Part shown: in pieces, positions 1 to 39,300 of the stretch
Position numbering within the stretch: position 1 is the stretch's first letter
How the letters are laid out: every line of letters starts with the position of its first letter
Virus record (IMG/VR): IMGVR_UViG_3300008113_000334
Coordinates: 1 to 48,176 of that record
Strand: one strand, 5' to 3'
DNA from: a virus
DNA: 48,176 bases
Notes under the pieces: generated by a model
Told to the model about the DNA's origin: nothing
What the model saw: the letters and a program-made list of their open reading frames with translations, nothing else
Database searches by the model: none
Translations under genes and position numbers: made by a program

Positions 1-2
1 AG

Positions 3-83
3 CTCCGTACAACTTGGTCATCTGCAACTCTTTTCAAAAGAGCAGCAGATACATGGGTTGTCTACGGCGACTTGATGGCATAA
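3..83 (+). CDS. C-terminal end of a virion structural protein, probably tail fibre (partial)
   Basis: Only the last 26 codons are inside the window, in frame 3, ending at TAA 81-83. The visible end contains TTWSSATLFKRAADTWVVYG. Short C-terminal tails pairing a Trp-Ser-Ala-Thr stretch with a Thr-Trp-Val-Val-x-Gly-Asp-Leu stretch are common at the ends of phage fibre and other surface proteins. The next gene begins 19 nt downstream with its own ribosome binding site and encodes an Fn3-type surface protein, which supports a structural role. Alternative frames also stay open for part of this short stretch, so the call rests on sequence character and context. Nothing can be said about the rest of the protein. 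Confidence 0.5.
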   Translation, partial: LRTTWSSATLFKRAADTWVVYGDLMA

Positions 84-102
84 TAGGATAAAGGAGAAAA
101 AA

Positions 103-996
103 ATGGCAGCAGGCAAGAAGTCAGGTAGAAAGTCTCAAGCATCAAATGACTTTTTGGAACCATCTAATGTAACTAGCTTAACAGCTACTGATGTTGGAAC
201 CGCTAGACCTTACCTATTGACAGCTAATACAACATCAGCAGCCTCTGCAGCAGGAACTGGAGCAGCAGCTTCACTTTCTTGGACACAACCAGGAACACTA
301 GCAGCAACCTCATATGTAATTACAACAACACCAGAAACATATACTTGGGATACTGGTTCTGCTACAACTTCTGCTACATTTCAAGGTTTAGCATCAAATG
401 TATCTTACACATTTACAGTAAAAGCAAAAAGTGCTGGTGGAACTGCATCAGGTACCACCTCTTCATCTGTAACGGTAACTACAGTTCCAGCACAAATGGA
501 TGCACCAGTCCCAACAGCTGGCCTTAATCAAAACTCTATTGCATTCACAGCACCAGCAAATGGCGGTAAGGTTATTACTGGATATACTGTAACTGGCAGC
601 GATGCAACTTCTGGAACAGGATCTACAAGCCCTATTCTTATTAACGATACTGGCGGAACATCTCAAACCTATACAGTCAAGGCAACAAATGCCAATGGAG
701 ATAGCGTTGTTTCTTCAGCATCTGGATCTATTACAACACTAGCTCCTTTCTTTCCACCATTCTTTCCACCATTCTTTCCACCGTTTTTCCCTCCAAGCTT
801 CCCATTTTTCCCTCCATTTTTCCCACCGTTCTTCCCACCTTCATTCCCGTTCTTCCCACCGTTCTTCCCACCTTTCTTCCCTCCAAGCTTCCCGTTCTTC
901 CCACCGTTCTTCCCACCGTTCTTTCCAAGCTTTTCGGTATGTAGACCAGCATGCGGTGGCAGTACTTACTGTTTTAATGGAATGTGTATAAGTTAA
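103..996 (+). CDS. Fn3-domain surface/fibre protein with Phe-Pro repeat stalk and Cys-rich tip
   Basis: This 297-residue protein looks like a virion decoration or fibre component. Residues about 20-128 and 132-212 resemble two fibronectin type III domains (repeated SYTFTVKAKSAGG-like and QTYTVKATNANG-like strands). Residues 215-275 are a low-complexity stalk of Phe-Phe-Pro-Pro units broken by Ser-Phe-Pro. The last 18 residues hold four cysteines (280, 284, 290, 295) that could form two disulfides. No signal peptide is seen. The start is set by AAAGGAG a few bases upstream of the ATG. The architecture of Fn3, proline stalk and Cys tip matches the end of the large fibre at 36339-40148, although the repeat unit differs. 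The stalk is a candidate substrate for the prolyl-hydroxylase-like enzymes encoded just downstream. The exact position on the virion is unknown. Confidence 0.75.
   Translation: MAAGKKSGRKSQASNDFLEPSNVTSLTATDVGTARPYLLTANTTSAASAAGTGAAASLSWTQPGTLAATSYVITTTPETYTWDTGSATTSATFQGLASNVSYTFTVKAKSAGGTASGTTSSSVTVTTVPAQMDAPVPTAGLNQNSIAFTAPANGGKVITGYTVTGSDATSGTGSTSPILINDTGGTSQTYTVKATNANGDSVVSSASGSITTLAPFFPPFFPPFFPPFFPPSFPFFPPFFPPFFPPSFPFFPPFFPPFFPPSFPFFPPFFPPFFPSFSVCRPACGGSTYCFNGMCIS
745..927 (+). repeat. 12-bp tandem repeats coding for a Phe-Phe-Pro-Pro stalk
   Basis: Imperfect 12-bp units of the type TTCTTTCCACCA encode FFPP. Ser-Phe-Pro interruptions create a larger periodicity, with PSFPFFPP recurring three times. 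Synonymous third-base changes between units indicate an older expansion kept under protein-level selection, but copy number could still change by replication slippage. The array codes for residues 215-275 of the Fn3 surface protein. Confidence 0.9.
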
Positions 997-1070
997 TTAA
1001 ATAAAATACACAGTAACATAAAAAGTTAAATAGGTGTATAATTTAATAACAAATGATTGGTGGTAACATT

Positions 1071-1496
1071 ATGTTATTTAATGAATATGCTCTTGCAGTT
1101 GAAATAGAATATAGTTTGTTTGAAATTTTTGATATTTTATATATTCCAAAAGATACAGAGGTAGACCTAAGATATAAAGCTGCTACTTCATATGGAGCAC
1201 ATGGAGTTTATGTCCCTATTAGTAGTGGCTTTGCAATAGGTGATACATTTGAAAACAATACAGTGGTTCATAACCTAGAAAGTGAATCTGTTAATATATC
1301 AGATGATCAAAATGCTTATTTGTTTATATCAGATAATAAAATTTTTGGTGTTACTATAAATCAAAAACTAGATTTTGCTGATAAAAAATATCAAGCTGCA
1401 TTTGAAAGCAATGTTATTTTAATTGATACATCTTTAGAAAATAAAGCAAATATTGGTGATCTTTGGGATGGACAAAAAATTATTCCAATGGTATAA
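1071..1496 (+). CDS. Hypothetical protein following the Fn3/stalk gene
   Basis: This 141-residue protein is not recognised with confidence. An ATG at 1053 is also in frame, but the ATG at 1071 has GGTGG about seven bases upstream and gives the more usual arrangement. The C-terminus contains a GDLWDGQKI motif; a short Val/Ile-Gly-Asp-x-Trp-Asp-Gly turn is frequent near the ends of phage fibre-associated proteins. The gene occupies the same relative position as 40165-40545, between a stalked fibre gene and a Cys-cluster gene, and that protein also ends with an Asp-Gly-Glu-Lys-Phe stretch. A possible -10 element TATAAT lies at 1037-1042. A fibre-associated role is inference from position only. 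Confidence 0.6.
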   Translation: MLFNEYALAVEIEYSLFEIFDILYIPKDTEVDLRYKAATSYGAHGVYVPISSGFAIGDTFENNTVVHNLESESVNISDDQNAYLFISDNKIFGVTINQKLDFADKKYQAAFESNVILIDTSLENKANIGDLWDGQKIIPMV

Positions 1497-1497
1497 T
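1489..1497 (+). promoter_or_regulatory. Extended -10 promoter TGGTATAAT for the gene at 1519
   Basis: TGGTATAAT matches the extended -10 consensus TGnTATAAT. It overlaps the end of the preceding gene, whose last codons are ATG GTA TAA. A start near 1504 would give a 15-nt leader carrying AAAGGAG. Confidence 0.6.
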
Positions 1498-1518
1498 TTT
1501 AAAAAGGAGCTTTAATTT

Positions 1519-1761
1519 ATGTCAAAGTGGAATGAATGGAAAAAAAATCTAGGTGATTCAAGGCCTTGGCACCTTTTAGATCCAGATAGAAAAATAAACA
1601 ATAAAGACATTATTGATAAAAGAATGCAATCTTGTTTAGGATGTGAGTTTTTTTTACAAACCAAACAATGCAGTAAGTGTGGATGCTTTATGCCATTAAA
1701 AACCCTTTTATCTAATGCAGAATGCCCTATTGGAAAATGGGGAAAAGAAGTAGATGCCTAG
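1519..1761 (+). CDS. Small Cys-cluster protein (DUF6171-like, predicted zinc-binding), copy 1
   Basis: This is an 80-residue protein with six ordered cysteines: C39-x2-C42, C51-x2-C54-x-C56 and C69-Pro, followed by a Gly-Lys-Trp ending block. The pattern CxxC...CxxCGCF...K...CP.GKW matches a family of small predicted zinc-binding proteins that I recall as DUF6171; its function is not known. AAAAGGAG precedes the ATG. The last bases overlap the start of the next gene by 8 nt, suggesting translational coupling to the DUF6065-like gene. A clear paralogue with the same cysteine order is at 40562-40792, also close to an oxygenase gene. A role as a metal-binding partner of that machinery is speculation. 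Confidence 0.75.
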   Translation: MSKWNEWKKNLGDSRPWHLLDPDRKINNKDIIDKRMQSCLGCEFFLQTKQCSKCGCFMPLKTLLSNAECPIGKWGKEVDA

Positions 1762-2518
1762 TAAGCCAAAAATTATATTTTGGACTAATGATATAGATGC
1801 CCCATATCCAAAAATTGAACCAGCATCTATTCGTAGAGAATGGATGGATAAAACACACAATAAATTAGCATATAAATGCACTCCACTATTAGATGCAATG
1901 TCAAACGGTTGGGAAATAAAACTTCCACAAGATGTTATTGTTAGTTGGGACGGAGTATCTGAAGGAATAGATGGAGAAGATCCTAATCATATCTCTATTC
2001 TTTCTGGAGAATTTTACAACGGTATTAAACTTGTATCTAAAGATACAGGAGTGGGAGCCATTACATTTGTTTTTGGATTAATTGCAGAAACAGACGATGA
2101 CCATTATTTAACTATTTCTGGACCCCCAAATTATATATTTAAAGATGCTCAAGCACTAACTGGACTATTAAGATCTAATCGTTTTATGGATCATCCATTG
2201 CAAGTAACATGGAAAATAAATACTGCAAACAAAGAAATATTGTTTCCAAAAGGAATGCCATTATGCTTCATATCTATACATAAAAAAAATACTACAGAGC
2301 TTACAGATGTAGAGATAAAATATGCAGACAAAGAAAAAAGAGAAAGTTTTGAAAAATATACAAATAAAAGATCACAACATTTTGGGGATAATGGACAGTA
2401 TGCATGGCCACAATTCTATAAAAATGGTATAGATTACAATGGAGATAAAGTTGATAAAACAATAACAAAAAGGATATTAAAACCAATTAAGTACACTAAA
2501 GATGATGGTATGATATAA
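1754..2518 (+). CDS. DUF6065-like protein, copy 1
   Basis: This 254-residue protein resembles the DUF6065 family, identified from recalled features: an early Arg-Arg-Glu-Trp-Met-Asp segment (about residues 27-32), an Ala-Tyr-x-Cys-x-Pro-Leu segment, a Gly-Trp-Glu segment, Trp-Asp-Gly, a central Gly-Pro-Pro-Asn strand, and later a Met-Pro-Leu-Cys strand. The biochemical role of the family is unknown. Four members occur here (1754, 3954, 4655 divergent, 44130), each next to a 2OG-type dioxygenase. This suggests a partner, for instance in substrate presentation, but no catalytic residue can be assigned. The gene overlaps the preceding stop by 8 nt, and its own stop overlaps an extended -10 promoter. 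Confidence 0.7.
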   Translation: MPSKPKIIFWTNDIDAPYPKIEPASIRREWMDKTHNKLAYKCTPLLDAMSNGWEIKLPQDVIVSWDGVSEGIDGEDPNHISILSGEFYNGIKLVSKDTGVGAITFVFGLIAETDDDHYLTISGPPNYIFKDAQALTGLLRSNRFMDHPLQVTWKINTANKEILFPKGMPLCFISIHKKNTTELTDVEIKYADKEKRESFEKYTNKRSQHFGDNGQYAWPQFYKNGIDYNGDKVDKTITKRILKPIKYTKDDGMI

Positions 2519-2519
2519 T
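2511..2519 (+). promoter_or_regulatory. Extended -10 promoter TGATATAAT for the gene at 2547
   Basis: TGATATAAT overlaps the ATG ATA TAA end of the upstream gene. The predicted start near 2526 leaves a leader of about 20 nt before the first 2OG dioxygenase gene. Confidence 0.6.
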
Positions 2520-2546
2520 TATTAAGAATACAGTTTGGGGTAAACT

Positions 2547-3260
2547 ATGTACAGCGAAGAAGAAAATCCTTGGTTTACTAAGGATAGATCAGAATCTTTA
2601 TCAACCAGAGTGCCAAGAAATCTAAACGGTATCAACATATCTAATCCAGCACTAGGACTAAATATCTATGAAGGTGCCATCAGTAAGGATGATGTTGACT
2701 GGGTTATAGATACACTTGAGAAAAATTTATCTAAAGGTTCAAGCTATAAGTGGAGCGAAGCACAGGTAACTAATTCTAATAAGCCAATAAAATCTGCACG
2801 AGACTGCTCAGACTTTAAGTTTAATGACAAAACTCTAGGACCAAGAACTGAACAAAACTCTGAACTTTTGAATATTTATGAAAAAATGTATGATATTGTA
2901 AAAAAGTGTGTTGATGATTATGCAAAATACTGGGGAATAAATGTAACTTACTATGAAGCATTTAACTTCGTTAAGTATGAAGGTGAAGGCCAAGAATTTA
3001 AAATACATGCTGACCACGGCCCACATTACAATACAACAGTGTCAATTGTTGTCTATCTAAATGAAGATTATGATGGTGGAGAAATACATTTTCCAAGACT
3101 TGACAAGCTAACATATACCCCAAAAGCTGGAGATATTGCAGTATTTCCATCAAATTATATTTATGAACATGCCTCGCTTCCAATGAAATCTGGAAGAAAA
3201 TACTGTATAGTTATCATGTCAGACATTAATCTTTTGGGTCATCCAGAACAAAAAATGTAG
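2547..3260 (+). CDS. Prolyl-4-hydroxylase-type Fe(II)/2OG dioxygenase, copy 1 (Lys type)
   Basis: This 237-residue protein carries the C-terminal catalytic double-stranded beta-helix of the P4H family (2OG-FeII_Oxy_3 type). The iron-binding triad appears to be H154-x-D156 and H208. The hallmark strand VYLNEDYDGGEIHFP follows the first histidine, and a Lys-Ala-Gly-Asp segment precedes AVFPSNYIYEH. The residue expected to bind the distal carboxylate of 2-oxoglutarate is K218 (GRKY) rather than Arg; collagen prolyl hydroxylases also use Lys. The reaction would be hydroxylation of a protein or small-molecule substrate with release of succinate and CO2. It is most like the neighbour at 3280 (both have an EAFNF motif), suggesting tandem duplication. 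The substrate is unknown; proline repeats in the fibres are candidates. Confidence 0.85.
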   Translation: MYSEEENPWFTKDRSESLSTRVPRNLNGINISNPALGLNIYEGAISKDDVDWVIDTLEKNLSKGSSYKWSEAQVTNSNKPIKSARDCSDFKFNDKTLGPRTEQNSELLNIYEKMYDIVKKCVDDYAKYWGINVTYYEAFNFVKYEGEGQEFKIHADHGPHYNTTVSIVVYLNEDYDGGEIHFPRLDKLTYTPKAGDIAVFPSNYIYEHASLPMKSGRKYCIVIMSDINLLGHPEQKM

Positions 3261-3279
3261 TAAAACAAAAGGAGAAAAT

Positions 3280-3954
3280 ATGAATGCAATCAATAATGAG
3301 TTGGTATCATGGAGCGGTGTTGAAGAAGTCGCACCAGGAATTTTAGTTTATCATGATGTTCTTCCAAAAGACCTAGATTTAATTAATAGGTTAGAGTCTG
3401 TGCTAGACACAAATAATGAAAATAATTATAATTGGCAAGAGGCATATGTTGGGTATAGACAAAGAATGCCTGAGTATAGGGACTGTGTAGATTTTAAGTT
3501 TAAAAAAACAGATATTGAGGGTGATACATCTGAGCATTCTCTAAAGCTACAAGCAATATGGCAAGATTGTTTTGATAGACAAAACCTTGCCGTACAGGAT
3601 TACTGTAAACGCTTTAACATTTATAACTTAAGATATTGGGAAGCATTTAATTTTATTAAGTATGAGCCAGGACATCACTTTATGGAGCACCACGACCATG
3701 GCTTTTCTTATAACTGTACCGTTTCATTAGTAGCTTATCTGAATGATGATTTTGAGGGCGGAGAACTATTTTTTAGATTGCAAGGTATTAACTATATACC
3801 AAAAGCTGGGGATGTTGTATTATTTCCATCAACATACATGTATCCCCATCAAGCAAAAGTAGTTCATTCTGGAACTAAGTATTCACTGGTTACAATGCTT
3901 GACTATAGCGATAAATTTCATAAGCCAGAATTTTATCAAGAAACAGGATCTTAA
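3280..3954 (+). CDS. Prolyl-4-hydroxylase-type Fe(II)/2OG dioxygenase, copy 2 (Lys type)
   Basis: This 224-residue P4H-like enzyme has the triad H137-x-D139 and H190, with K200 at the 2OG-carboxylate position (SGTKY). The strands VAYLNDDFEGGELFF and PKAGDVVLFPS are typical of the family. It shares a DCVDFKF/DCSDFKF segment and EAFNF with the preceding gene, so the two are probably tandem paralogues. The start is well supported by AAAGGAGAAAAT immediately upstream of the ATG. The stop overlaps the next start as TAATG, coupling it to a DUF6065-like gene. Length is about that of the bare catalytic domain, without the peptide-binding domain of animal collagen hydroxylases, as in short viral and algal P4Hs. 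Confidence 0.85.
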   Translation: MNAINNELVSWSGVEEVAPGILVYHDVLPKDLDLINRLESVLDTNNENNYNWQEAYVGYRQRMPEYRDCVDFKFKKTDIEGDTSEHSLKLQAIWQDCFDRQNLAVQDYCKRFNIYNLRYWEAFNFIKYEPGHHFMEHHDHGFSYNCTVSLVAYLNDDFEGGELFFRLQGINYIPKAGDVVLFPSTYMYPHQAKVVHSGTKYSLVTMLDYSDKFHKPEFYQETGS

Positions 3955-4658
3955 TGTCAATAGTCACATGCTATAAATTAAATAAAAAAGCTTTAAATAT
4001 ATCTCCAATGAGTATAAAGAGAGATTGGATGGATGAGACCCCGCAGGGTCATGCATATAGATGTCATCCAGTGACATCAGCTAATGTAATTGGCTGGTAT
4101 ATCTCTTGTCCAGTAGACATTAAGTTTATTTGGAATGGAATTAATGATACAACTCCAAACAATGTAACAGTATTGGAAGGTAACGATTATGTTTATACAG
4201 GTAGGGGTCAATCAACCGTTAGCTTCAACACTGGATTTATTTTAAGGACAGAAGAAAAGATGAGTGTTCTTACAATAACTCCACAAAACTATTTTAATAA
4301 AGATCTTGAGGTTATGTCTTCTCTTATTTCAACATCTTTTTTAGATTCTGATTTTCCACTGGCAGTTAAATGTATGACAGCAAATAAAGAAATTACAATA
4401 AAGGCAAACACTCCAATAGCAACAATTATTCCAATCTCTGTATCATCATTAAAAGATGAATCTATCACTATTGTAAATTTTGAAAATATTGCAGAAAGAA
4501 ATGCACAGATGCAGGCATATGGCGATGCAGCCCAAGAAATAAATCAATCAGGGGAATGGACTGATTGGTACCGTAATGCAGTAAATGAAAAAGGCGAGTC
4601 TATTGGATCACATGAGGTTAAAAATTTAAAGTTAAGTGTGATTGATAATACAATATGA
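3954..4658 (+). CDS. DUF6065-like protein, copy 2
   Basis: This 234-residue protein is clearly related to the protein at 1754: it has Lys-Arg-Asp-Trp-Met-Asp near residue 22-27, a Tyr-Arg-Cys-His-Pro segment, Gly-Trp-Tyr, Trp-Asn-Gly-Ile, a central Thr-Pro-Gln-Asn-Tyr-Phe strand and a later Thr-Pro-Ile-Ala segment. These correspond in order to the recalled DUF6065 family pattern. It is coupled to both neighbours by overlaps of TAATG upstream and ATGA downstream, so it is co-translated with a P4H-like enzyme and with a third, more distant relative. No catalytic motif is evident. The family may form a cupin-like beta fold, but that is a guess from the strand-rich sequence. Confidence 0.65.
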   Translation: MSIVTCYKLNKKALNISPMSIKRDWMDETPQGHAYRCHPVTSANVIGWYISCPVDIKFIWNGINDTTPNNVTVLEGNDYVYTGRGQSTVSFNTGFILRTEEKMSVLTITPQNYFNKDLEVMSSLISTSFLDSDFPLAVKCMTANKEITIKANTPIATIIPISVSSLKDESITIVNFENIAERNAQMQAYGDAAQEINQSGEWTDWYRNAVNEKGESIGSHEVKNLKLSVIDNTI

Positions 4659-5380
4659 AGGTTATAGAATTTATTAGCAATAGATACTGGTTGAGGTCAG
4701 ATAGCGAATCAATACCTAAGTCTATATCAAAGCTAATTCCATCTTGGTATAGACAGGCTGATAGATTTGCTAAGATGCCCAATGGAGAATATTGGGTTGG
4801 TCCAGATGCTGGAAAGATACCAACATGGAAAGCATGCCCAGCACTTTTAGATATAATGACAACAGGATATAGTCTTGTAACACCATGCGATATAACATTT
4901 TCAATTGATGATATTGGAAATATTTCAGCAAAGGTTAGTGATCCACTTTATCAAGATTTTGTTACAAGAAGAGAGCCAATGCCACAGTTTGAACAACCGC
5001 ATGGATATTACAAGTATCATTTTGCTTGGTTCCCAGAATGGGCTATAAAAGTTCCCTCTGGGTATAGTGTTTTATACTCTTCTCCATTTAATAGATATGA
5101 TCTGCCCTTTATGACAGTTGCTGGAATTATAGATAACGATAAAGTTAATCTTCCTGGATCTATGCCATTTTTTATTAAAGAGGGGTGGACTGGAGTTATA
5201 CCAGCTGGAACCCCATATGCTCAGATGATTCCTTTTTTAAGAGAAGATTGGAAATCACAAACAGTCATTCCAACAGTAAATGATATAATTATTAACAATA
5301 CACAAAATAGTAAAAAATATCGTATTCCAAATGGTGGTGTATATAAAAATAGTGTTTGGACTAAAAGGTCTTACGAATAG
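4655..5380 (+). CDS. Divergent DUF6065-related protein
   Basis: This 241-residue protein is beta-rich, without transmembrane segments. It resembles its neighbours in overall plan: a Cys-Pro-Ala-Leu-Leu-Asp segment followed by a Gly-Tyr-Ser segment and Thr-Pro-Cys-Asp, a central Ser-Ser-Pro-Phe-Asn-Arg strand, and a later Ile-Pro-Ala-Gly-Thr-Pro strand. The Trp-Met-Asp signature of the other copies is missing, and the N-terminal YRQADRF segment suggests a separate subfamily seen in other environmental phages. It begins with an ATGA overlap. Its last codons precede a TGGTATAAT promoter for the next gene. Function unknown; relationship to DUF6065 is moderate confidence and could be tested by structure prediction. 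Confidence 0.55.
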   Translation: MKVIEFISNRYWLRSDSESIPKSISKLIPSWYRQADRFAKMPNGEYWVGPDAGKIPTWKACPALLDIMTTGYSLVTPCDITFSIDDIGNISAKVSDPLYQDFVTRREPMPQFEQPHGYYKYHFAWFPEWAIKVPSGYSVLYSSPFNRYDLPFMTVAGIIDNDKVNLPGSMPFFIKEGWTGVIPAGTPYAQMIPFLREDWKSQTVIPTVNDIIINNTQNSKKYRIPNGGVYKNSVWTKRSYE

Positions 5381-5384
5381 AAAG

Positions 5385-5393
5385 TGGTATAAT
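5385..5393 (+). promoter_or_regulatory. Extended -10 promoter TGGTATAAT; predicted leaderless start at 5400
   Basis: TATAAT occupies 5388-5393. Counting the final T as -7 places +1 at 5400, exactly the A of the ATG of the next gene. There is no good Shine-Dalgarno sequence and no clear -35 box at normal spacing. Confidence 0.65.
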
Positions 5394-5399
5394 AAAAAT

Positions 5400-6065
5400 A
5401 TGACAGAAGAAATTCAAAATCGCAACATGATTCAATACGAATCAATTACCCCTGCTGGGTTTTTTGGTTCATCGCCAGAACATATTCAAGCAAGAGAAAA
5501 TTTTATGACCAAAGAAGAGCATGAGTTCTTGTTAGATGCTGCAAAAAGAATAACAGTATGGGATGTAACAGAAACTCACTATAATGAAGATGGGGTTGTT
5601 ACATATGATTCTGATTATTGGAAAGACAGAGTTGCAACAGCAAACACCTTAGATAAGCTAGATCCACAAATATCTATTGTTATTTCTAATATGGTTAAGC
5701 GTTTTAAAAAAGATGTAGATGCATATTTTGAAGTTGATGCTAAAGAAACAAGTCCAGCAATTGTAAGATGGCTTCCAGGTCAGCTTCAGATGCCACATGC
5801 TGATAAGCAACTACCAAGCGGTGAGCCAAATGATTTTCCATGGTTTGACCTAGCTGGATTATTCTACTTAAATGACGATTATGAGGGCGGAGAGTTATAC
5901 TTTCCAAATCAAGGTATAGAGTTTAAGCCAAAGCCAGGAGCAGCATATTTTTTCCCAGGAGATTTAAACTATGTTCACGGTGTTCGTGAAATTAAAAGCG
6001 GTATTAGATATGTAATACCATTTTTCTGGACAATTCAAAAGCATACAGGAGATAGACAGCCATGA
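5400..6065 (+). CDS. Prolyl-4-hydroxylase-type Fe(II)/2OG dioxygenase, copy 3 (Arg type)
   Basis: This is a 221-residue P4H-like enzyme starting at the ATG directly downstream of a promoter. An in-frame ATG at 5331 lies inside the previous gene and is less likely. The triad is H133-x-D135 and H193, with R203 (SGIRY) as the probable 2OG-binding residue, unlike the Lys in copies 1 and 2. Family strands LFYLNDDYEGGELYFP and PKPGAAYFFPGD are present. The end overlaps the next gene as ATGA. A change between Lys and Arg at this site separates known 2OG-enzyme subgroups, so this copy may have a different substrate or ancestry. Confidence 0.85.
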   Translation: MTEEIQNRNMIQYESITPAGFFGSSPEHIQARENFMTKEEHEFLLDAAKRITVWDVTETHYNEDGVVTYDSDYWKDRVATANTLDKLDPQISIVISNMVKRFKKDVDAYFEVDAKETSPAIVRWLPGQLQMPHADKQLPSGEPNDFPWFDLAGLFYLNDDYEGGELYFPNQGIEFKPKPGAAYFFPGDLNYVHGVREIKSGIRYVIPFFWTIQKHTGDRQP

Positions 6066-6811
6066 CAAACCTCAATAATAAAGTGAGACTAACTAAAGAT
6101 ATTATTCTTTATGAAAACTTTTTAACCAATGAAGAATCTGAACAAATTATTAAAGTTTTAGATAAACAGGTTGAAAATGAAAAAATTATCTGGTCTCCAA
6201 TATCTTTTTATGAGTCATACTCATCAGTACTTCCTAAAGATGGTGATCAAGAAATCATTGACTTTGGCCTTCCATCAGACATATTCTCAAAAATTAAACA
6301 AGGAATTATAAATGGAGTTGCCTCTATTCACGATCTAGATCCAGGCACCATTGTTGAGATAGGCTACCATACTCAAAAGTGGGAACCTGGTGCTTATGCC
6401 AGAATACATTCTGACAACACTGATGAGCATGGAAATACTGGACCATTTGAAAGAAGCAGGTATGCAGCATTTATTTATTTAAATGAAGACTTTGAAGGTG
6501 GCCTGCTACAGTTCCCAAGTCATGACATATCCATATCTCCAAAAACTGGAATGCTTGCTGTTTTTAGCGGAGGATATGAGAATATGCACGAAGTAACAAT
6601 GATTACAAAAGGTGTAAGATATACAATGGGCTCATTCTGGGACGATAGAGAAGAGTCAGCATATTCACAAGAAACAAGAGATATGTGGGCTGAAGAAATG
6701 AAAAAGGTAAGAGATGCACAAAAGATAGAAAAAGAAGAGTGGCAAAATCTTATAAAAGAAGGATATAAAATTGATATGAATGGTAATAAGTATAAGGTAG
6801 AAGACGTATAA
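6062..6811 (+). CDS. Prolyl-4-hydroxylase-type Fe(II)/2OG dioxygenase, copy 4 with charged C-terminal tail (Arg type)
   Basis: This 249-residue protein has H116-x-D118, H176 and R186 (GVRY). The strand FIYLNEDFEGGLLQFP differs slightly from the family, with Leu-Leu in place of Glu-Leu. After the catalytic domain there is an extra tail of about 55 residues, rich in Lys and Glu (from about residue 195), predicted helical. The tail is absent from the other copies and may mediate protein contact. The start is fixed by an ATGA overlap with the upstream dioxygenase. The HSDNTDEHGN stretch just after the first histidine is longer than usual. Substrate unknown. Confidence 0.83.
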   Translation: MTNLNNKVRLTKDIILYENFLTNEESEQIIKVLDKQVENEKIIWSPISFYESYSSVLPKDGDQEIIDFGLPSDIFSKIKQGIINGVASIHDLDPGTIVEIGYHTQKWEPGAYARIHSDNTDEHGNTGPFERSRYAAFIYLNEDFEGGLLQFPSHDISISPKTGMLAVFSGGYENMHEVTMITKGVRYTMGSFWDDREESAYSQETRDMWAEEMKKVRDAQKIEKEEWQNLIKEGYKIDMNGNKYKVEDV

Positions 6812-6814
6812 CAT

Positions 6815-7474
6815 ATGAGTAGTTTTTTAAAAGAAGAATTAGAAGAAAATGACTTTATAGTAAAAAATATAACAGATGATGTTTTAATAGTAGAAAACTT
6901 TTTATCTCAAGAAGAAATTGACGAAATATTCAATATTATATCCAACACCCCAGAAGAAGACTGGAACATTGAATACTATTTTAATGTGAAAATGTTTTGT
7001 ATGGAAAAGTTTGGTAGAGATGACATTGATAATCTTGTAGCTGAAGGCAAGTTTGAGATAACTCAAAACTGGAATGATAAAAATTTAAATATAGCTAATA
7101 AGAAAATCTATCGTTCTATTTATCGCAGACTAAGAGACATTGTTAGTTTTTCATATCCTGATCTTGAGCTAAGTGGTTTGGCCACTATTCAAAGAATGCA
7201 AGAAGGTGTTGAGTTAAAATCACATACTGACCAACATACAGACCCATCTATATCTTATGCTGCAATTGTTTATTTAAATGATGACTATGTAGATGGAGAG
7301 CTTTTTTTTAAACACATGAATATAGAACTAAAGCCCAAATCAGGCTCTTTGGTCTTGTTTCCAGGTAACGATAAGTATGAGCATGGAGTAAGGCATGTAG
7401 GAGCAGGCCCAGTCAGATATGTGCTTGTTGGATTTATAAAAAAGGTTAATTTTTATGAAAATAACAAGTACTAA
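6815..7474 (+). CDS. Prolyl-4-hydroxylase-type Fe(II)/2OG dioxygenase, copy 5 (Arg type)
   Basis: This 219-residue protein has the triad H137-x-D139 and H190, and R201 (GPVRY) as the likely 2OG ligand. Family strands are VYLNDDYVDGELFF (Val-Asp replaces the usual Glu-Gly) and KPKSGSLVLFPG. The N-terminus is acidic and helical. It starts three bases after the previous gene with little Shine-Dalgarno support, so it is probably translated by coupling. A TGGTATTAT promoter follows its stop, separating it from copy 6. As with its neighbours, the fold assignment is firm and the substrate is not. Confidence 0.83.
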   Translation: MSSFLKEELEENDFIVKNITDDVLIVENFLSQEEIDEIFNIISNTPEEDWNIEYYFNVKMFCMEKFGRDDIDNLVAEGKFEITQNWNDKNLNIANKKIYRSIYRRLRDIVSFSYPDLELSGLATIQRMQEGVELKSHTDQHTDPSISYAAIVYLNDDYVDGELFFKHMNIELKPKSGSLVLFPGNDKYEHGVRHVGAGPVRYVLVGFIKKVNFYENNKY

Positions 7475-7489
7475 TGTATTTTAAGAATG

Positions 7490-7498
7490 TGGTATTAT
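7490..7498 (+). promoter_or_regulatory. Extended -10-like promoter TGGTATTAT for the gene at 7521
   Basis: TGGTATTAT lies in the gap after the gene ending at 7474. The start near 7505 would give a 16-nt leader containing AGGAG before the ATG. One mismatch from TATAAT; a TATACT partly overlaps at 7498-7503 without a TG. Confidence 0.5.
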
Positions 7499-7520
7499 AT
7501 ACTAAAGGAGATGTGAGACC

Positions 7521-8297
7521 ATGAAACTAGAAAAAAAGCTAGAAGAGAATATATATTACTACACAGAGGTTATTCCAGACCCTGAGAAGTTGATATCTTT
7601 AATTAAAGAAACCGACGGTGATCCAGACATACTCAGTGTAATTCCCGCATGGACAAATTGGCTATCAAATTCTGGAGACGGTGTAGCATTCGGCGGTAAA
7701 AAAGATTTTAATGTAAGCAACCTAGACTCATTGTCTGGAGAAGCAAAAGAAAAGGCAACATACATTGTTTCTGCAATACAAAATGCTGTTAAAGATGTGG
7801 CATATGCTTTTGTTAAAGATAGAGGCTTAGACATAGAAGAACCAAACATATCTCCATTTGCGGGAGTGATGAAGTATATAGCTGGATTAGAAATGGGTGC
7901 TCACTATGATGCTCAAGCTGGAGATGATAGTCTTTGGTGGTCAATGGTAATTTATCTAAACGACGATTATGAAGGTGGAGAGCTATCTTGGATATTGCAT
8001 GATAAAGATTTGTTAGATCCACAGTATGCTCACCTTAAGCCAAGATCAGATCTTTATGATCCAGAAAATGAAAATCTAATTGATTTTTGGATTAAACCAG
8101 TTGCTGGATCAGCACTTATTTTTCCATCAACATTTCCATATCGTCATCAGGTTCATATTATGAAAGAGGGAGACAAGTATATGTTCCCAGGATTTATATT
8201 TAAGCCAGAGTATGATCCATCTGATCCAGAGTCAGTTAAAAAGTTTAATGCTGGTTCACTAGTTATTAAAAAAAATCCATACCTTGAAGATAAGTAA
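7521..8297 (+). CDS. Prolyl-4-hydroxylase-type Fe(II)/2OG dioxygenase, copy 6 (Lys type, long insert)
   Basis: This 258-residue enzyme has H128-x-D130 and H209, with K219 (GDKY) at the 2OG-binding position. The strand VIYLNDDYEGGELSW is canonical, but an insertion of about 30 residues (roughly 160-190) separates it from the Lys-Pro-Val-Ala-Gly-Ser and FPSTFPYRH strands. It is the longest of the P4H-like copies and has an extra C-terminal extension. An AAAGGAG ribosome binding site and its own promoter suggest expression separate from the preceding group. The insertion could reshape the substrate entrance. Confidence 0.85.
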   Translation: MKLEKKLEENIYYYTEVIPDPEKLISLIKETDGDPDILSVIPAWTNWLSNSGDGVAFGGKKDFNVSNLDSLSGEAKEKATYIVSAIQNAVKDVAYAFVKDRGLDIEEPNISPFAGVMKYIAGLEMGAHYDAQAGDDSLWWSMVIYLNDDYEGGELSWILHDKDLLDPQYAHLKPRSDLYDPENENLIDFWIKPVAGSALIFPSTFPYRHQVHIMKEGDKYMFPGFIFKPEYDPSDPESVKKFNAGSLVIKKNPYLEDK

Positions 8298-8309
8298 AAA
8301 GGGTATACT

Positions 8310-9188
8310 ATGAGAATAGTTAGTCCAACTGCTTTTGTATCAATAGAGGATATTAAGAATAATATAGAATATTATTCAAATCTTATTATTGATAATAGAA
8401 TAGTTTGTTTTCGTGATGCCAACTTGTCTGTAGAAGATCAAAGCTTGGTTAGAGAGATTTTTGGGGATTACTTTAATTGGTATCCTCAAACATCAGATAG
8501 GCATCGCAAAACATCAGATACTAATAAAATTAAAGAAAAGTATCAAGAGAATCATTCAAGACTAACTTCAAATCAAAAGAATAGTGAAAAAGATCAAGTT
8601 ATTCTTCCGTGGCACATAGAGCATACAGAATATAATATACCAATTGTAGCTAGTTTTTGGAATATGATAAAATTTTCTGCAGATCCAGAAACAGGTAAAA
8701 CACTTTTTGTTGATACAAGTGAGATATACGATAATCTAGATGAGGACTGGAAAGATTTCTTAAACAAAAGCAAATACTGCTCTTCCAAAGAAAATTATCC
8801 TAATTTTGTAAAACCAGCAATATCAAAACATTGGTGGATAGATAAAAAGGTAATTAGATTAGACCTTACACATCATACTGATGATGCAGACTACCTTTAT
8901 GAATTTGACGGTAGAGAACCAACAGATAGTGAAAAGAAACAGTTTTTAAAAATAAGAAAACACATCTTAGATCTCATTACTATCAATAACGAAGATCTTC
9001 TCTATGTCCATAAATGGAAAGAAGGAGATCTTTTGATATCAGACTTATTTGTTCTTGCTCATTCAATAACTGGAGGGTTTGACTCAAAAGATAGAGAGTT
9101 TGTTGGATTGTGGGCTAGAGATTATTATGACATAGAGAAAGATGGATACCAATGGCAACACTCAGGATTAAAAAATAATGAAGCATGA
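8310..9188 (+). CDS. TauD/TfdA-type Fe(II)/2OG dioxygenase-like protein
   Basis: This 292-residue protein belongs to a different 2OG superfamily branch from its neighbours. Features are an N-terminal Arg-Ile-Val-Cys-Phe-Arg-Asp strand (about residues 30-36), a Leu-Pro-Trp-His-Ile-Glu-His-Thr segment, a Gly-Lys-Thr-Leu-Phe-Val-Asp strand, and a late Leu-Ala-His strand. The probable iron ligands are H102-x-E104 and H251, with R262 a candidate 2OG-binding residue. Glu instead of Asp as the middle ligand is less usual but still a carboxylate, so it does not look like a halogenase, which has Ala or Gly there. The following gene starts within its last codons. Substrate unknown. Confidence 0.75.
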   Translation: MRIVSPTAFVSIEDIKNNIEYYSNLIIDNRIVCFRDANLSVEDQSLVREIFGDYFNWYPQTSDRHRKTSDTNKIKEKYQENHSRLTSNQKNSEKDQVILPWHIEHTEYNIPIVASFWNMIKFSADPETGKTLFVDTSEIYDNLDEDWKDFLNKSKYCSSKENYPNFVKPAISKHWWIDKKVIRLDLTHHTDDADYLYEFDGREPTDSEKKQFLKIRKHILDLITINNEDLLYVHKWKEGDLLISDLFVLAHSITGGFDSKDREFVGLWARDYYDIEKDGYQWQHSGLKNNEA

Positions 9189-9804
9189 AATATTAAAAGA
9201 TAAGATTGTTTATTTCCCTGGAGTTATAAAAAATAGCCAAGAGATCATTAATGCTATAGAGTCATTAAACTCAAAGGCAGTTACAGGGTGGGAAAATTGG
9301 TATGCTGGATCAGATGAAAAGCATATCTATGGCGATATAAAGTATATGGATAGATCTAGGTATAAAGAAGAGTCTGATCCTGTCACACTAGATAAGTGTA
9401 AGTTTGTTATAGAGTCATTGTGTGATTATATGGCTGAGTGTGCAAAGGTTTATGCTAATATATTTGATATTCCAAAAGATCATTTAGATTTTGCAATTTC
9501 TATTATAAAACAAGAAAATACTGTAATAGGAATAAATAAATATGGCACCAATATGCATATGGGCCCACATGTTGATTTAAATGAAAAAAATGATTATATT
9601 CAATACACAGTTGTTGTTTATTTAAATGATGACTATGAAGGCGGAGAACTTTACTTCCCAAACCATGATATAAAAGTAAAGCCAATTGCTGGAAGCATTG
9701 CTATGTATCCTTCTGGACACCCTTACATGCATGAATCGCTAAACCTTACAAGTGGACGAAAAATGTTAATAACACATCATCTTAGAAATAATGATGCAAG
9801 ATGA
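9178..9804 (+). CDS. Prolyl-4-hydroxylase-type Fe(II)/2OG dioxygenase, copy 7 (Lys type)
   Basis: This 208-residue P4H-like enzyme has H131-x-D133 and H185, with K195 (SGRKM) at the 2OG position. Family strands VVYLNDDYEGGELYFP and KPIAGSIAMYPSG are clear. The GRK context resembles copy 1 at 2547. The start overlaps the upstream TauD-like gene by 11 nt and the stop overlaps the next gene as ATGA, so all three are translationally linked. It closes the first oxygenase cluster. The short length means it is essentially the catalytic domain alone. Confidence 0.85.
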   Translation: MKHEILKDKIVYFPGVIKNSQEIINAIESLNSKAVTGWENWYAGSDEKHIYGDIKYMDRSRYKEESDPVTLDKCKFVIESLCDYMAECAKVYANIFDIPKDHLDFAISIIKQENTVIGINKYGTNMHMGPHVDLNEKNDYIQYTVVVYLNDDYEGGELYFPNHDIKVKPIAGSIAMYPSGHPYMHESLNLTSGRKMLITHHLRNNDAR

Positions 9805-10418: not shown

Positions 10419-12452
10419 ATGTCAGAAAGCGTATTCTCATTCCGTCTATCAGAGGACTTTGTAAACAAGTACTCTACCGTCCCAGCTCCATTTGGATTTT
10501 CAGATGCAGGCTCTAACTCACTGGGAGAAATTACATTTATTCGTACCTATTCACGTGTTAAAGAAGACGGAACTAAAGAACGCTGGCATGAAGTATGCCG
10601 TCGTGTAATTGAGGGTATGTACTCAGTTCAAAAGAACCATGCTAAGGATAACCGTCTTCCATGGAATGATAACAAAGCTCAGAAGTCAGCACAAGAAGCA
10701 TTCCAAAGAATGTTTGAGTTGAAGTGGACTCCTCCAGGTCGTGGTCTATGGGCATTTGGTACTCCAATGACTATGGAGAAGCGCAACTCTGCTTCACTTC
10801 AAAACTGTGCAATGGTATCTACTCGTGATCTTGATCGTAATGATCCAGGTGCTCTTTTTGCTTGGGTAATGGATGCACTGATGCTAGGTATTGGAGTTGG
10901 GTTTGATACTCTTGGACAAGATAAGCAGATGTCTATCTATGCACCTTCAGAGCCAGCATCTATTTATGAAATTCCAGATAACCGTGAAGGATGGGTAGAA
11001 TCAGTTCGTATTTTAGTAAACTCATTCCTTCGTCAAAATCAAGCGGTACAGGAATTTAACTATGACCTCATCCGTCCTCTAGGAGCACCTATTAAGGGCT
11101 TTGGAGGGGTCGCTAGCGGTCCAGCACCACTTATTGATCTACATACACGAATCAGAAATGTCATTGGTTCTAGAGCAGGAGAGCAGCTAGATAGCCGTGC
11201 AATTGTAGACATTATTAATCTTATTGGCACATGCGTTGTTTCAGGAAATGTTCGTCGTTCTGCAACACTTGCATTAGGTACTGCAAAAGACGAGGGCTTT
11301 ATTAATCTTAAGAATCCAGAAGTATTCCCAGAAAGAAATTCATACGATCCAGAAAAGCCAGGTTGGGCATGGATGAGTAATAACTCAATTGCTGCTGAGG
11401 TTGGAACAAAGTATGAAGATTATGTAGATTTAATTGCAGACAACGGAGAACCAGGTTTTATCTGGCTTGATGTTGCTCGTAATTATGGCCGTCTTGCAGA
11501 TGCTCCTGATTATAAGGACACTCGCATCATGGGCTTCAATCCTTGTGCGGAGCAGCCATTGGAGTCATACGAACTTTGTACACTTGTAGAGGTACACTTG
11601 AATCGCCATGAATCCAAGGAGGACTTCCTCAAGACATTGAAGTTTGCTTATCTTTATGGAAAGACTGTAACTCTTATGCCAACACATTGGCAACAGACAA
11701 ACGGTATTATGCAAAGAAACCGTCGTATTGGAACATCTTTGACAGGCATTGCTGCATTTGCTGACGAGCATGGTCTTCCAACAACCCGTGAATGGATGGA
11801 TGAGGGCTACAACACAATTCGTAAGCATGATCATCGCTATTCAGAATGGCTGTGTGTTCGTGAATCAGTTCGTGTAACAACAGTTAAGCCATCAGGTTCC
11901 GTGTCACTTCTTTCTGGTGCTACACCTGGAGTTCACTGGGGACCTGGTGGAGAGTTCTACCTTCGTGCAATTCGTTTTGGTGATCAAGATCCAATGCTCC
12001 ATCTTTTCAAAGCTGCAGGGTATAAGATTGAAGCAGACCTAGTATCAGCTAATACCTCAGTAGTCTACTTCCCAGTTGCATCAGGACACAAGCGTTCTGA
12101 AAAGCAGGTAAGTCTATTTGAAAAGATTGGACTAGCAGCAACTGCTCAGAAGTACTGGTCAGACAATGGTGTTTCTGTAACCCTGTCATTTGATAAGGAA
12201 GAGGAAAAGAAGTTTGTTGCTCCAGCACTTAATATGTATGAGGGACAGCTAAAGGCAGTGTCATTCCTTCCAATGGGAAATAAGACATATCCTCAGCAAC
12301 CATATACAGAAATCACACGAGAAGAATATAACTCCTATGTAGGCAAGATTGGTAAGATTGACTGGTCTGCCGTATATGATGGAGTTGAAAATCTTGAGGC
12401 AGAAGGTGAAGCATATTGCTCCACAGATGCCTGCGAGATCAAATTCTACTAA
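10419..12452 (+). CDS. nrdJ: Class II (adenosylcobalamin-dependent) ribonucleoside-triphosphate reductase
   Basis: This enzyme reduces ribonucleotides to deoxyribonucleotides for phage DNA synthesis, using adenosylcobalamin as radical source. The 677-residue sequence matches the monomeric Lactobacillus-type triphosphate reductase. The active-site cysteine pair appears as C130 (LQNCAMVST) and C387 (ELCTL), the thiyl-radical cysteine as C376 and the catalytic glutamate as E378 (FNPCAE), with the same 11-residue spacing between the last two cysteines as in that enzyme. The C-terminal re-reducing pair is C667 and C672 in CSTDAC. No intein is present. Arginine is mostly CGT here, whereas the flanking oxygenases mostly use AGA. 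No separate small subunit is needed for this class. Confidence 0.95.
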   Translation: MSESVFSFRLSEDFVNKYSTVPAPFGFSDAGSNSLGEITFIRTYSRVKEDGTKERWHEVCRRVIEGMYSVQKNHAKDNRLPWNDNKAQKSAQEAFQRMFELKWTPPGRGLWAFGTPMTMEKRNSASLQNCAMVSTRDLDRNDPGALFAWVMDALMLGIGVGFDTLGQDKQMSIYAPSEPASIYEIPDNREGWVESVRILVNSFLRQNQAVQEFNYDLIRPLGAPIKGFGGVASGPAPLIDLHTRIRNVIGSRAGEQLDSRAIVDIINLIGTCVVSGNVRRSATLALGTAKDEGFINLKNPEVFPERNSYDPEKPGWAWMSNNSIAAEVGTKYEDYVDLIADNGEPGFIWLDVARNYGRLADAPDYKDTRIMGFNPCAEQPLESYELCTLVEVHLNRHESKEDFLKTLKFAYLYGKTVTLMPTHWQQTNGIMQRNRRIGTSLTGIAAFADEHGLPTTREWMDEGYNTIRKHDHRYSEWLCVRESVRVTTVKPSGSVSLLSGATPGVHWGPGGEFYLRAIRFGDQDPMLHLFKAAGYKIEADLVSANTSVVYFPVASGHKRSEKQVSLFEKIGLAATAQKYWSDNGVSVTLSFDKEEEKKFVAPALNMYEGQLKAVSFLPMGNKTYPQQPYTEITREEYNSYVGKIGKIDWSAVYDGVENLEAEGEAYCSTDACEIKFY

Positions 12453-35787: not shown

Positions 35788-36339
35788 ATGCCATATGTTA
35801 AAATATCAGACCCTAATATTATAGATCTTGCTGCTTGGCACCAAGTTATTAATGTTATTAATCAACACAGCGATACTCTTTCTGCTATCACAAATAATTT
35901 TGGTATTAAAGGAACTGCTGTTACAGACTGGAATGGCGAAACAGAAGTTTATGAAGAATTTAATTCTGGCTCACAAAAAATACTTTATGGAAAGTTTAGA
36001 ATTAATACCACAGATACTGAAGCAAATGGCACCAAAGATTTAAGTACAAATGGTGGTCGTATGTTTTATCAAACAGTAGATTTTGACAACTCTTCAAGTG
36101 GGTCAGCTAGCTTTAAAGCAAAGCCTATTGTAACCGTTACACCAGCTCTAGTTGGCTCAACTGTTACATCAGATAGAAACGTTGGTCTTGTTTGTACCGT
36201 AATTGCAACAACTGATAAAGGTTTTACAGTTCGTGTTATTAATGCAAGAGAGCTGACTGCAGAGTCACCTTCAACAGTTGCCGATCCAAAGCCCGTTAGC
36301 TATTTTAATATAAACTGGATTGCTATAGGACCAAAGTAA
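35788..36339 (+). CDS. Minor tail protein, H-type-lectin-like C-terminus
   Basis: This 183-residue protein has a helical N-terminus (DPNIIDLAAWHQVINVINQH) of the kind that trimerises in fibres, a Glu/Gly-rich middle, and a beta-rich C-terminal domain. The last 90 residues (FKAKPIVTVTPALVG..., a DKGFTVRVINARE strand and a final INWIAIGPK) resemble the H-type lectin-like plan, in which a Gly-Phe-Thr-Val strand and a final Trp-Ile-Ala strand are typical. This would suit a receptor-binding tip, but similarity is moderate and recognised by eye. It overlaps the large fibre gene as TAATG. Confidence 0.55.
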   Translation: MPYVKISDPNIIDLAAWHQVINVINQHSDTLSAITNNFGIKGTAVTDWNGETEVYEEFNSGSQKILYGKFRINTTDTEANGTKDLSTNGGRMFYQTVDFDNSSSGSASFKAKPIVTVTPALVGSTVTSDRNVGLVCTVIATTDKGFTVRVINARELTAESPSTVADPKPVSYFNINWIAIGPK

Positions 36340-39300
36340 TGGCTAAGGTACCGCCTAAGTCTGTTTATAAAAGTCCCAAGTCAGTTGCTAGAAATCAACC
36401 CGTAACAATAAGTGTTGATGATCCAAGAGCAGCTTGGGATAAGATTGGACAGACTAGAGCAAGGGTAGGAGCTGAACTTGAACTTGTTGGATTAGATGAT
36501 ATTCCTTTAATTGGTGGAGGAAAAAGTTTAACAGCATCAGTTGGTCCACCAACAGCAGGCCATCCTAGCGAACCACAAAGATTTATAATTCCTGGAATCA
36601 ATGGTGGAGAAGCTTCTATTCAAGTTGGCTATGGTGCTATAGTACCAACAGATATTACTAATGTTTCAACAGCTTGGTCAGGATCAAGCCTTGTGGTTAC
36701 ATTTGATTGGGACTATGCAGACCATGCCAATAGAACTGTTACAGAATTTATTTTAGAGATCACTGCTGATGGAGTTACGAGACAAACACCATATGGTTCA
36801 TTTCCAGTAAATAGAACACAGACTGGACAAACAGCAACAGTTACTGAATCTATAATGCAAACAACAATGGGGGAGCTTACTAAAAATGTTACAAAGGTTT
36901 GTGTTTATGTAATTGATGCTTTTTATAATAAAAGTACTAGCGTTTGTGACAATACCGTCCCAGAACACATTTTAGATCTGCCAATTCCAGTTATTACAGT
37001 AAGTCAGGCTGTAGATGGCTATAATGTTGCATATACTATACCAACTCAGTCAAGTTTTGATGCTATTGATATTGTTGAATATGAGTCAAACTCTTCTACA
37101 GAACCAACAGGTGTTACATACTCAAGAGTATATTTTAGTGGTATCTCTCCAGCAAATATTCTTACATTAACTTTAAACTCTAGATGGGTAAAGGCACGTT
37201 TTTCATCAAGATCTCGTCAATATACAGCCTTTTCTGCTGCACAAAAAGTAACACCACTATCTCCAGTTACAATTGATAACGAAGGACCTGCTGCTCCAAC
37301 TGGATCAGTAACTGGTGGAATAGAAACTTCTGGAACGATAGGATTTAACGCTTTCTTAAATATATCTTGGACGGCAGTATCAGATGCTACTTTACGAGGA
37401 TATAGAATTAGGTTTAGACCAGTAACTACTCCAGCATCAAATTACTCTTATGTAGACTCCCCAGGAAATGGAACAACTTTTAGAATTACAGGTCTTGCTT
37501 CAGGCACAAGCTATGAAGTTCAAATTGCATCATATGATGAATTTAATAACACCTCATCAGAATACCAAACACTAACTAATAGCCCAGTGTCAACTGCTGG
37601 ATCTCCTTTTATAGGAACAAATGTTTCTACAACTGGATATTTTGAAGCTGGAGTTTCTGGAACAGATACAGGAGTTTTTAGATTTGGCTACGGGGTAGCT
37701 ACTGGTAAAAGAGGCTTATCATTTAATACAAACAATTATTGGTATATAGATTCATCTCAGTCAGCGTCTTTAAAGGTTGGTGGAGCAGACAACTATGTTA
37801 CTTGGGACGGCGCATCTCTTGTAGTGGCTGGAGACCTACAGGCTAAAAAAGGATCTTTTAGCGGAAATGTAAGTATTGCAAGTGGTGCATCTTTATATAG
37901 TGGAACTTTAACTGGCAATACAGTTACTTCTAGTGGAGATACTGGTGGATCTTTATCTGGATCAGGTTATATACTAAATAATGGTGGTCTTATATTTAAT
38001 TCACCAACAGTTAATGGTATTACAAGAATAGATTCAGATACAGGACGCTTGACAACAAAAGAGGCAAATATTGGTGGATGGATTGTAAACGATAATTCAA
38101 TATCAAAAACACAATTTATAGACGATGTAGCACAAGGAACAATATCTTTAAACTCTACAGCAGGATACATATCAGTATCCAATGATAATGTTTCTGGAAA
38201 AACTGCAGGAATAAATAGTTCATCATCTCCAACAGATTTAGCTTTTTGGTCTGGCGGTACAGGACCAACAAATGCATCATCAAACTCTTTTAGAGTACAA
38301 CTAAATGGAGATCTATTTGCAAGCAATGCAACAATTAAAGGAATTATAAGAGCTAGAGAAGGTGGTTTTGGAACATTTAATGAAACTACTAATGTTGTCA
38401 CAGATGGTTGGACTATTGAGACCAATGGAATTAAAGCAGTAGGAGAAGGTGCAATAAGATTAGGCAATTATTCAATAGAAACAGTAACTGCTAACGGAAC
38501 TGATTTTTCAATCAAGGAGCGCATTACTGGTCAAACTCCAACCACAATTATAAGAACAGATTCAGCTTCTAATGCGACCACTGATGCAAAGAGAATCTTT
38601 TTAGGTGATGGTACAAGACAGGTGGAAGTTGCTAAATCAGCAGGTGTTTGGCCTTCTGGAACGACAGAAACACTTCCATCATCAAATACAACAGTTGTAA
38701 ACCAGTATAGATCTGGTGGTTTAAGAAACATGTTTACTGTAACAAAACCCAATCTTCTTCTTAATCAAGGAGATGAACAGACAGTAACACTTTTTCCATC
38801 AGCATTTAAAGGTGATGTTTTAATTGTTTGGGACCCAAGCACTGGTGGCGGTGGTGACTGGAAAAAGGCAGAGATTTGGTTAAAGGCTGATGGTACTCTT
38901 CCACCAACACCTGTAACCCCACCTGTCACTCCACCTCCTGTAACTCCTCCTGTAACCCCACCTCCTGTAACTCCACCTCCTGTAACCCCACCAACAGTTT
39001 TTGATATAGACAGTATATCTGCAACCTCAGCAGCAATAACTTATTCTTGGATTAACCCACCAGCAACAACTGCAAGCTATGATGTTTATTACGTTCAAGG
39101 AAGTACACAGTCTGGTATAACTACCGTATCTGATACATCTCATACTTTTACGGGACTTAATCCAGATACTGATTATACCGTTTTTGTTATCGCAAGAAAC
39201 TCAATAGGCATATCTCTAGCAACAGATAGTGCTGTAATTAGAACAGACGTAGCTCCGCAAAATACATACTACTTTGCCTGTGAAGATTCAACTTGTGGCT

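Follow-up and report, generated by a model that had tools for sequence, protein, structure and literature searches.

The repeat type of a phage stalk protein predicts whether a cassette of 2OG-Fe(II) oxygenase genes follows its gene, and this pairing is strict in both directions. The window, our name for the whole 48,176-base IMG/VR virus record analysed here, carries at 103..996 (+ strand) a gene for a protein with a Phe-Pro stalk and a cysteine-bearing tip; by Pfam search, the 9 kb after this gene encode seven PF13640 oxygenases, whose active sites are intact, together with one TauD-type oxygenase and two DUF6065 proteins. The adjoining cassette and its tracking of stalk type are our main result, one that goes beyond what the first-pass annotation had claimed for the stalk protein. 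We favor the possibility, at a probability of roughly 0.6, that the phage-encoded cassette supplies prolyl hydroxylases that mature the Phe-Pro stalks of a tail-associated spike with an exchangeable disulfide tip.

Architecture of the stalk protein and its relatives

The stalk gene encodes 297 residues. At residues 52-118 there is an fn3 match (PF00041, E 1.1e-9; 38.8 bits against the Pfam cut-off of 25), and an AF2 model built on an alignment of 31 is all-beta at residues 21-210 with a block pLDDT above 80; the anchor can thus be assigned with confidence to the fibronectin type III/Ig-like domains, on both an above-threshold profile and a beta-sandwich model. The 61-residue stalk (745..927, +; residues 215-275) is made of 29 Phe, 29 Pro and 3 Ser and has no secondary structure in the model (pLDDT 50-60). 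The 22-residue tip (928..993, +) is modelled as a small hairpin (pLDDT 72-77) and contains the only Cys of the protein, at residues 280, 284, 290 and 295. The first-pass annotation had described a 61-residue Phe-Pro stalk and a four-Cys tip, which a residue count reproduces exactly, and had suggested that the stalk is extended; the structure prediction it named as a check finds no fold for this segment, which gives that suggestion good support. A collagen or collagen-like fibre was rejected, as the stalk consists of F, P and S only and has no Gly with which to form Gly-X-Y triplets. A chance repeat was likewise ruled out as the origin of the stalk DNA array by its Tandem Repeats Finder score of 222 (period 45 bp, 3.7 copies).

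At least 356 viral contig stretches in IMG/VR contain relatives confirmed by tblastn; 79 loci were kept from these, and the stalk family is widespread among IMG/VR phages. Among 50,697 phage records, tblastn with the low-complexity filter on found nothing related to the stalk protein, and megablast with window positions 1-12000 gave no match. The first search for relatives used a peptide pattern that carried FFPP, and its loci therefore favour Phe-Pro stalks; two later searches used queries without FFPP, and the contrasts between stalk types given below (within 9 kb, for DUF6065 and for the reductase) rest largely on loci from these queries. Only exact duplicate proteins were removed, and near relatives remain. 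Among 159 unique proteins typed, 116 have Phe-Pro stalks, 38 have [FY]xFxP stalks, three have Pro-poor Gly-Ala-Phe stalks and two were not callable. The Pro-poor stalks belong to sister phages (L102, L088 and L123) in which the 9 kb after the stalk gene contain no oxygenase. Across the relatives compared the anchor is conserved and stalk length and tip differ, so that the general design of stalk plus tip put forward from the window alone is borne out by proteins with the same plan and interchangeable tips. One relative, L025, has an extra domain flanked by two separate Phe-Pro tracts.

We give hardly any credence to the idea that the stalk is just a hydrophobic linker, unmodified and lengthened by replication slippage, with the tip as mere decoration. 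Slippage would account for the low complexity of the stalk DNA, with its repeat periods of 12 and 45 bp, and for the wide variation in Phe-Pro stalk length (median 83 residues, maximum 191), but the stalk codons differ at their third positions while the residues are kept, and the spacing of the repeat is narrow: among the eight commonest step classes, steps of four residues (1201 cases) and three residues (881 cases) make up 2082 of 2136, the other listed steps 54. Strict pairing of the stalk with a cassette, described below, also argues against a passive linker.

The unique tips of Phe-Pro stalks comprise 49 Cys caps (at least three Cys), 28 short tips with fewer Cys and 21 long tips; those of other stalks comprise 2 Cys caps, 7 short and 27 long tips. 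Of the 86 unique tips no longer than 80 residues, 29 lack Cys and 57 have it, and in 56 of these 57 the number of Cys is even (2, 4, 6, 8, 10 or 12). The sole odd tip, with a single Cys, is that of L110, whose tail appears frameshifted. Related tips differ in Cys count by twos, and 95 of the 98 Phe-Pro proteins with unique tips have no Cys outside the tip. We take this parity as the signature of paired disulfides, while noting that a simple p value for it would be too strong, the tips being related. Cys residues restricted to the tip and even in number suggest a disulfide-rich mini-protein and, together with the AF2 hairpin, give good support to the disulfide-bonded tip that the first-pass annotation had proposed.

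Self-processing Hint domains have a Cys at their start and HN or HNK at their end. Many relatives (L085-L087, L060, L079, L006 and L014) have Hint/intein-like C-termini, several of which show these same end residues, and on that basis such tips might cleave themselves off the stalk. Five long tips were scanned with Hint/intein profiles, and three gave weak matches (3e-6, 6.5e-4 and 2e-3), all below cut-off. The window protein itself has no Hint/intein-like tip.

An oxygenase cassette that tracks stalk type

The genes that follow the stalk gene in the window, all on the + strand, were compared with 33 Phe-Pro loci and 34 loci of other stalks by counting homologues of each. A DUF6171 protein (1519..1761; PF19668, E 2.2e-6) comes first and, being found near both stalk types, is not specific to the cassette. 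It is followed by a first DUF6065 protein (1754..2518; PF19541, E 1.2e-30) and by a prolyl-hydroxylase-like 2OG-Fe(II) oxygenase (2547..3260; PF13640, E 5e-13) whose top PDB matches are prolyl 4-hydroxylase and procollagen hydroxylases. A second PF13640 oxygenase (3280..3954) has homologues in 33/33 Phe-Pro and 4/34 other loci, and the second DUF6065 protein (3954..4658; PF19541), present in 33/33 against 0/34, serves as the marker of the cassette. Beyond a conserved protein of unknown family (4655..5380), which has no Pfam match and lies near both stalk types, there are four further PF13640 oxygenases, at 5331..6065 (33/33 against 12/34), 6062..6811 (33/33 against 0/34), 6815..7474 (31/33 against 1/34) and 7521..8297 (31/33 against 0/34). 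The TauD-type oxygenase (8310..9188; PF02668) is particular to the window, with homologues in 0/33 and 0/34, and the last PF13640 oxygenase (9178..9804) is not cassette-specific, as its homologues occur in 3/33 and 4/34.

Seven window ORFs score above the PF13640 cut-off and, with their active sites intact, belong to the 2OG-Fe(II) oxygenase superfamily, whose mark is an HxD...H facial triad with K/R. Phe-Pro loci gave 515 aligned PF13640 domains, of which 493 keep the complete H, D, H triad; site by site, H is kept in 513, D in 515, the distal H in 494 and K/R at the 2OG position in 492. The PDB matches for a profile of the seven oxygenases are headed by prolyl 3-hydroxylase 1 (6e-12) and prolyl 4-hydroxylases (3e-11). 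The PDB E value is about 1e-11 for the profile and 2e-4 for one protein, which makes this a remote sequence match, and we infer prolyl hydroxylase activity of the cassette enzymes from this remote similarity; PF13640 enzymes are not all protein hydroxylases. The oxygenases also match phrog_61 (E 5e-31). A predicted structure of DUF6065, with a mean pLDDT of 73.6, found a dUTPase-like fold as a weak match (E 1.7e-4, TMq 0.39), which we take only as a lead; no DUF6065 relative was found in 50,697 phage records. Besides the two cassette copies, the window has a third DUF6065 at 44130-44885.

Among loci with at least 9 kb of downstream sequence, 5-10 PF13640-type genes lie within 9 kb after the stalk gene in 33 of 34 Phe-Pro loci, compared with 0-2 in 34/34 loci of other stalks. 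The sole Phe-Pro exception comes from L118, a locus with two stalk genes, the other of which has seven oxygenases. DUF6065 gives the same division (33/33 Phe-Pro and 0/34 other loci, the window left out). As a flanking control we used the class II ribonucleotide reductase found by domain search at 10419..12452 (+), which follows the stalk gene in many loci of both types and, compared across loci, is 81-89% identical to that of the window. Between stalk gene and reductase there are 6-8 oxygenases in 22/22 Phe-Pro loci, with a median gap of 7.7 kb, and none in 27/27 other loci, with a median gap of 2.2 kb; the pairing is unbroken in 49 loci.

Stalk type has changed repeatedly. On the reductase tree it changes 11 times, at least five of them on supported branches, and all five supported independent pairs agree (5/5, two-sided p 0.0625); on the anchor tree it changes four times, at least three with support. 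Loci L154, L158 and L161 are of Phe-Pro type inside the FxFxP clade and have five oxygenases, and L162-L166 are of FxFxP type inside the Phe-Pro clade and have no oxygenase in the available sequence, which for L165 is only 2 kb downstream.

Within the Phe-Pro loci the number of prolines and the number of oxygenases are not correlated (rho 0.13, p 0.48), and the idea that proline count drives oxygenase number was rejected on the lack of correlation within stalk types. This result could also be turned against the stalk as substrate. The oxygenases might instead have the tip, other fibres or the Ig domains as their targets, stalk type merely marking the type of virion, and six to eight different oxygenases do seem a large number for a stalk in which only two residues alternate. 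We consider this improbable, given that tips vary widely among Phe-Pro phages (Cys caps, long Hint-like tips and short ones) while their cassettes are alike, and that the cassette tracks the stalk repeat, also on a second anchor.

Linkage, a second anchor and the converse test

The stalk gene adjoins the cassette, and some of the pairing is therefore due to linked transfer. Linkage might even be the whole explanation: stalk type and oxygenases would be exchanged jointly between two conserved recombination points, the anchor and the reductase, with the enzymes acting elsewhere, for example by shifting 2-oxoglutarate levels or by modifying DNA or metabolites. The cassette does sit directly between the conserved anchor and a reductase that is 81-89% identical, and roles in 2OG or nitrogen metabolism and in DNA repair have been proposed for cyanophages in the accessible part of PMC3037559. 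We nevertheless think it unlikely that linkage is all there is, since: (i) the pairing holds without a break in all of the 49 loci bounded by the reductase; (ii) a non-homologous, PASTA-like anchor that bears a Phe-Pro stalk is also accompanied by oxygenases and DUF6065; (iii) stalk genes several kb apart agree in type and (iv) the FxFxP pattern is absent from whole records of the Phe-Pro type.

Regarding the second anchor, a DNA-pattern scan located Phe-Pro tracts on anchors other than FN3, and 40 records with such tracts were chosen by hand, 9 of the 25 PASTA-like Phe-Pro loci being left out. The designation PASTA-like refers to a PF03793 match in one of three scanned, at 21.3 bits and just below the cut-off of 23.2. 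PF13640 genes are present in 14 of 16 PASTA-like anchored Phe-Pro records, 11 of these 14 having at least four, and the two records without are fragments of 9-11 kb; DUF6065 is present in 11 of 15 PASTA-like Phe-Pro loci. Compared with their best FN3-phage matches, the oxygenases of PASTA-like loci show only 41% identity (median). Over the 40 records with non-FN3-anchored tracts, PF13640 is absent in 10 and single in 6; these are fragments, but one is 53 kb, and mostly the tract lies inside another kind of protein. Large proteins of other kinds contain Phe-Pro tracts as well. At least in fragments, then, a Phe-Pro tract is not always accompanied by oxygenases. PASTA-like-anchored Phe-Pro stalk genes were also seen in L381, L383 and L387, binned as Verrucomicrobiales or Gammaproteobacteria MAGs, which are perhaps phage contigs.

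The converse question was put to the best 80 of 592 DUF6065 matches, which gave 58 unique loci. All 40 of those with at least 4 kb of upstream sequence have a Phe-Pro stalk gene and none has an FxFxP stalk; the 18 with less than 4 kb upstream show a stalk gene in 7 cases and do not in 11. Loci with two or more stalk genes have a single stalk type each (29/29 unique sets), several of these being duplicated genes. Across 48 long records, the Phe-Pro pattern occurs in 24/25 Phe-Pro records and 0/23 others, and the FxFxP pattern in 0/25 and 17/23, respectively. Over whole records the contrast in oxygenases is less sharp, with PF13640 totals of 0-6 in the non-Phe-Pro records.

Proposed stalk maturation and comparison with known systems

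Our working model is that ORF 103-996 encodes a stalked spike, probably of the tail region of the virion, in which the N-terminal pair of Ig/FN3 domains would serve as anchor and the Phe-Phe-Pro(-Pro) stalk would hold a small cap away from the particle. As a mini-domain closed by disulfides, which presumably form after lysis, the cap would be exchangeable and is most likely the part that touches the host surface. The Phe-Pro stalk would need modification in trans, with the PF13640 oxygenases and DUF6065 as a dedicated maturation cassette; the oxygenases most likely hydroxylate stalk prolines, and perhaps other stalk residues, which by analogy with the prolyl hydroxylases of collagen and of the plant cell wall would make the stalk stiff and soluble. 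Sister phages would have swapped stalk and cassette jointly for a five-residue repeat that needs no modification. What we observe is the architecture, the Cys parity, the intact active sites and the strict pairing; the role of the stalk as substrate, proline as the modified residue, a place for the protein in the virion and host binding by the tip are inferred. Against the stalk-hydroxylation reading, [FY]xFxP stalks contain proline, yet come without a cassette.

The genomic setting includes the 3' end of a tail-fibre-like gene directly upstream of the stalk gene (1..83, +), whose C-terminal residues match the fibre genes of L178, L209 and L163. In these three loci the fibre gene lies directly before the stalk gene, with an Mtd_N domain in L178 and L163, which represent both stalk types. 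The neighbouring Mtd_N gene makes incorporation of the stalk protein into the virion, and binding of the host surface, plausible. Elsewhere in the window, a second Pro-repeat protein (36339..40148, +) carries Val-Thr-Pro-Pro arrays between FN3 and List_Bact_rpt domains. The first-pass annotation had attributed to it the same plan of stalk and tip; the Pro-repeat arrays and a Cys-bearing tail are there, but the tail has three Cys rather than four (1254, 1260 and 1268, the last of 11 in the protein). An extension of the system to this protein was dropped, as records G068, G069 and G075 have repeats of a similar kind but no cassette. A conserved pathway of GlcNAc addition to hydroxyproline was dropped as well. 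It would have rested on a PF11397 glycosyltransferase at 41391-42383, of a family that we take to include a hydroxyproline GlcNAc transferase, and PF11397 was found in only 4 of the 50 stalk records covered by a whole-record domain search (out of 80 possible, the window plus 79 loci).

More broadly, and as a tentative suggestion, aquatic phages may switch between two stalk chemistries, building particles either with hydroxylated Phe-Phe-Pro-Pro stalks, matured by 6-8 prolyl hydroxylases of their own plus DUF6065, or with cassette-free [FY]xFxP stalks. Stalks on non-homologous anchors would switch together, and the disulfide or Hint-like caps would form a diversifying library of receptor contacts. 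Were this so, many phage 2OG oxygenases of unknown role would gain a function in virion building, bacteriophages would modify their spikes by hydroxylation, much as animals treat collagen, and in the tips nature would have provided a collection of disulfide mini-binders mounted on stiff stalks. The strict two-way pairing with one stalk repeat in any case offers a concrete, testable substrate for phage oxygenases.

Judged by titles and the starts of abstracts, searches of the open-access literature turned up no proposal of phage stalk hydroxylation. Several 2OG-Fe(II) oxygenases in one phage are a frequent finding in aquatic phages: most cultured T4-like cyanophages have 1-5 and S-SCSM1 has 24, according to the accessible part of PMC9602691, where the functions of phage 2OG oxygenases are called "not specifically investigated" and nitrogen metabolism is among the proposals. 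Metabolic or DNA-repair roles are proposed in what is accessible of PMC3037559 and PMC9602691, and a structural resemblance of phage oxygenases to the human prolyl hydroxylase EGLN3 is reported in the accessible text of PMC12774648. Like these PHROG 61 cyanophage enzymes (PMC3037559, PMC9602691, PMC12774648), the oxygenases described here belong to one family with several copies per phage; unlike them, for which the accessible portions of those papers propose no virion substrate, they are tied to stalk type. Cyanophage S-SCSM1 has Pro-rich stretches (RPQP, TPSP) in two annotated virion proteins (L389 23417-31270 and L392 20255-23014), an observation on one phage, without a control, that proves nothing.

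The stalk protein shares the fibre context of Mtd_N (PF18454) tail-fibre proteins, which adjoin it in relatives, but has no Mtd_N match itself. Prolyl 4-hydroxylases (3itq/5hv0, 2jig) and prolyl 3-hydroxylase 1 (8k0e) act on Pro-rich extended chains. The cassette enzymes resemble them in sequence family and in the HxD...H...K/R site; they differ in that the match is remote and the stalk a putative substrate only. L230 of Mimivirus, a lysyl hydroxylase/glycosyltransferase, is a 2OG-Fe(II) enzyme that acts on viral collagen. Among known systems, a close counterpart in a virus is that of the Mimivirus collagens and the hydroxylase L230 (PMC5802723 and PMC9546862, in their accessible parts). As in Mimivirus, one viral genome carries genes for a repetitive structural protein that contains Pro and for 2OG-Fe(II) enzymes, modification of the one by the other being what we propose here. 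The present case differs in that the virus is a phage rather than a giant virus, the repeat is Phe-Phe-Pro-Pro rather than Gly-X-Y, and in place of L230 there are 6-8 PF13640 enzymes together with DUF6065, with proline rather than lysine as the proposed site of modification.
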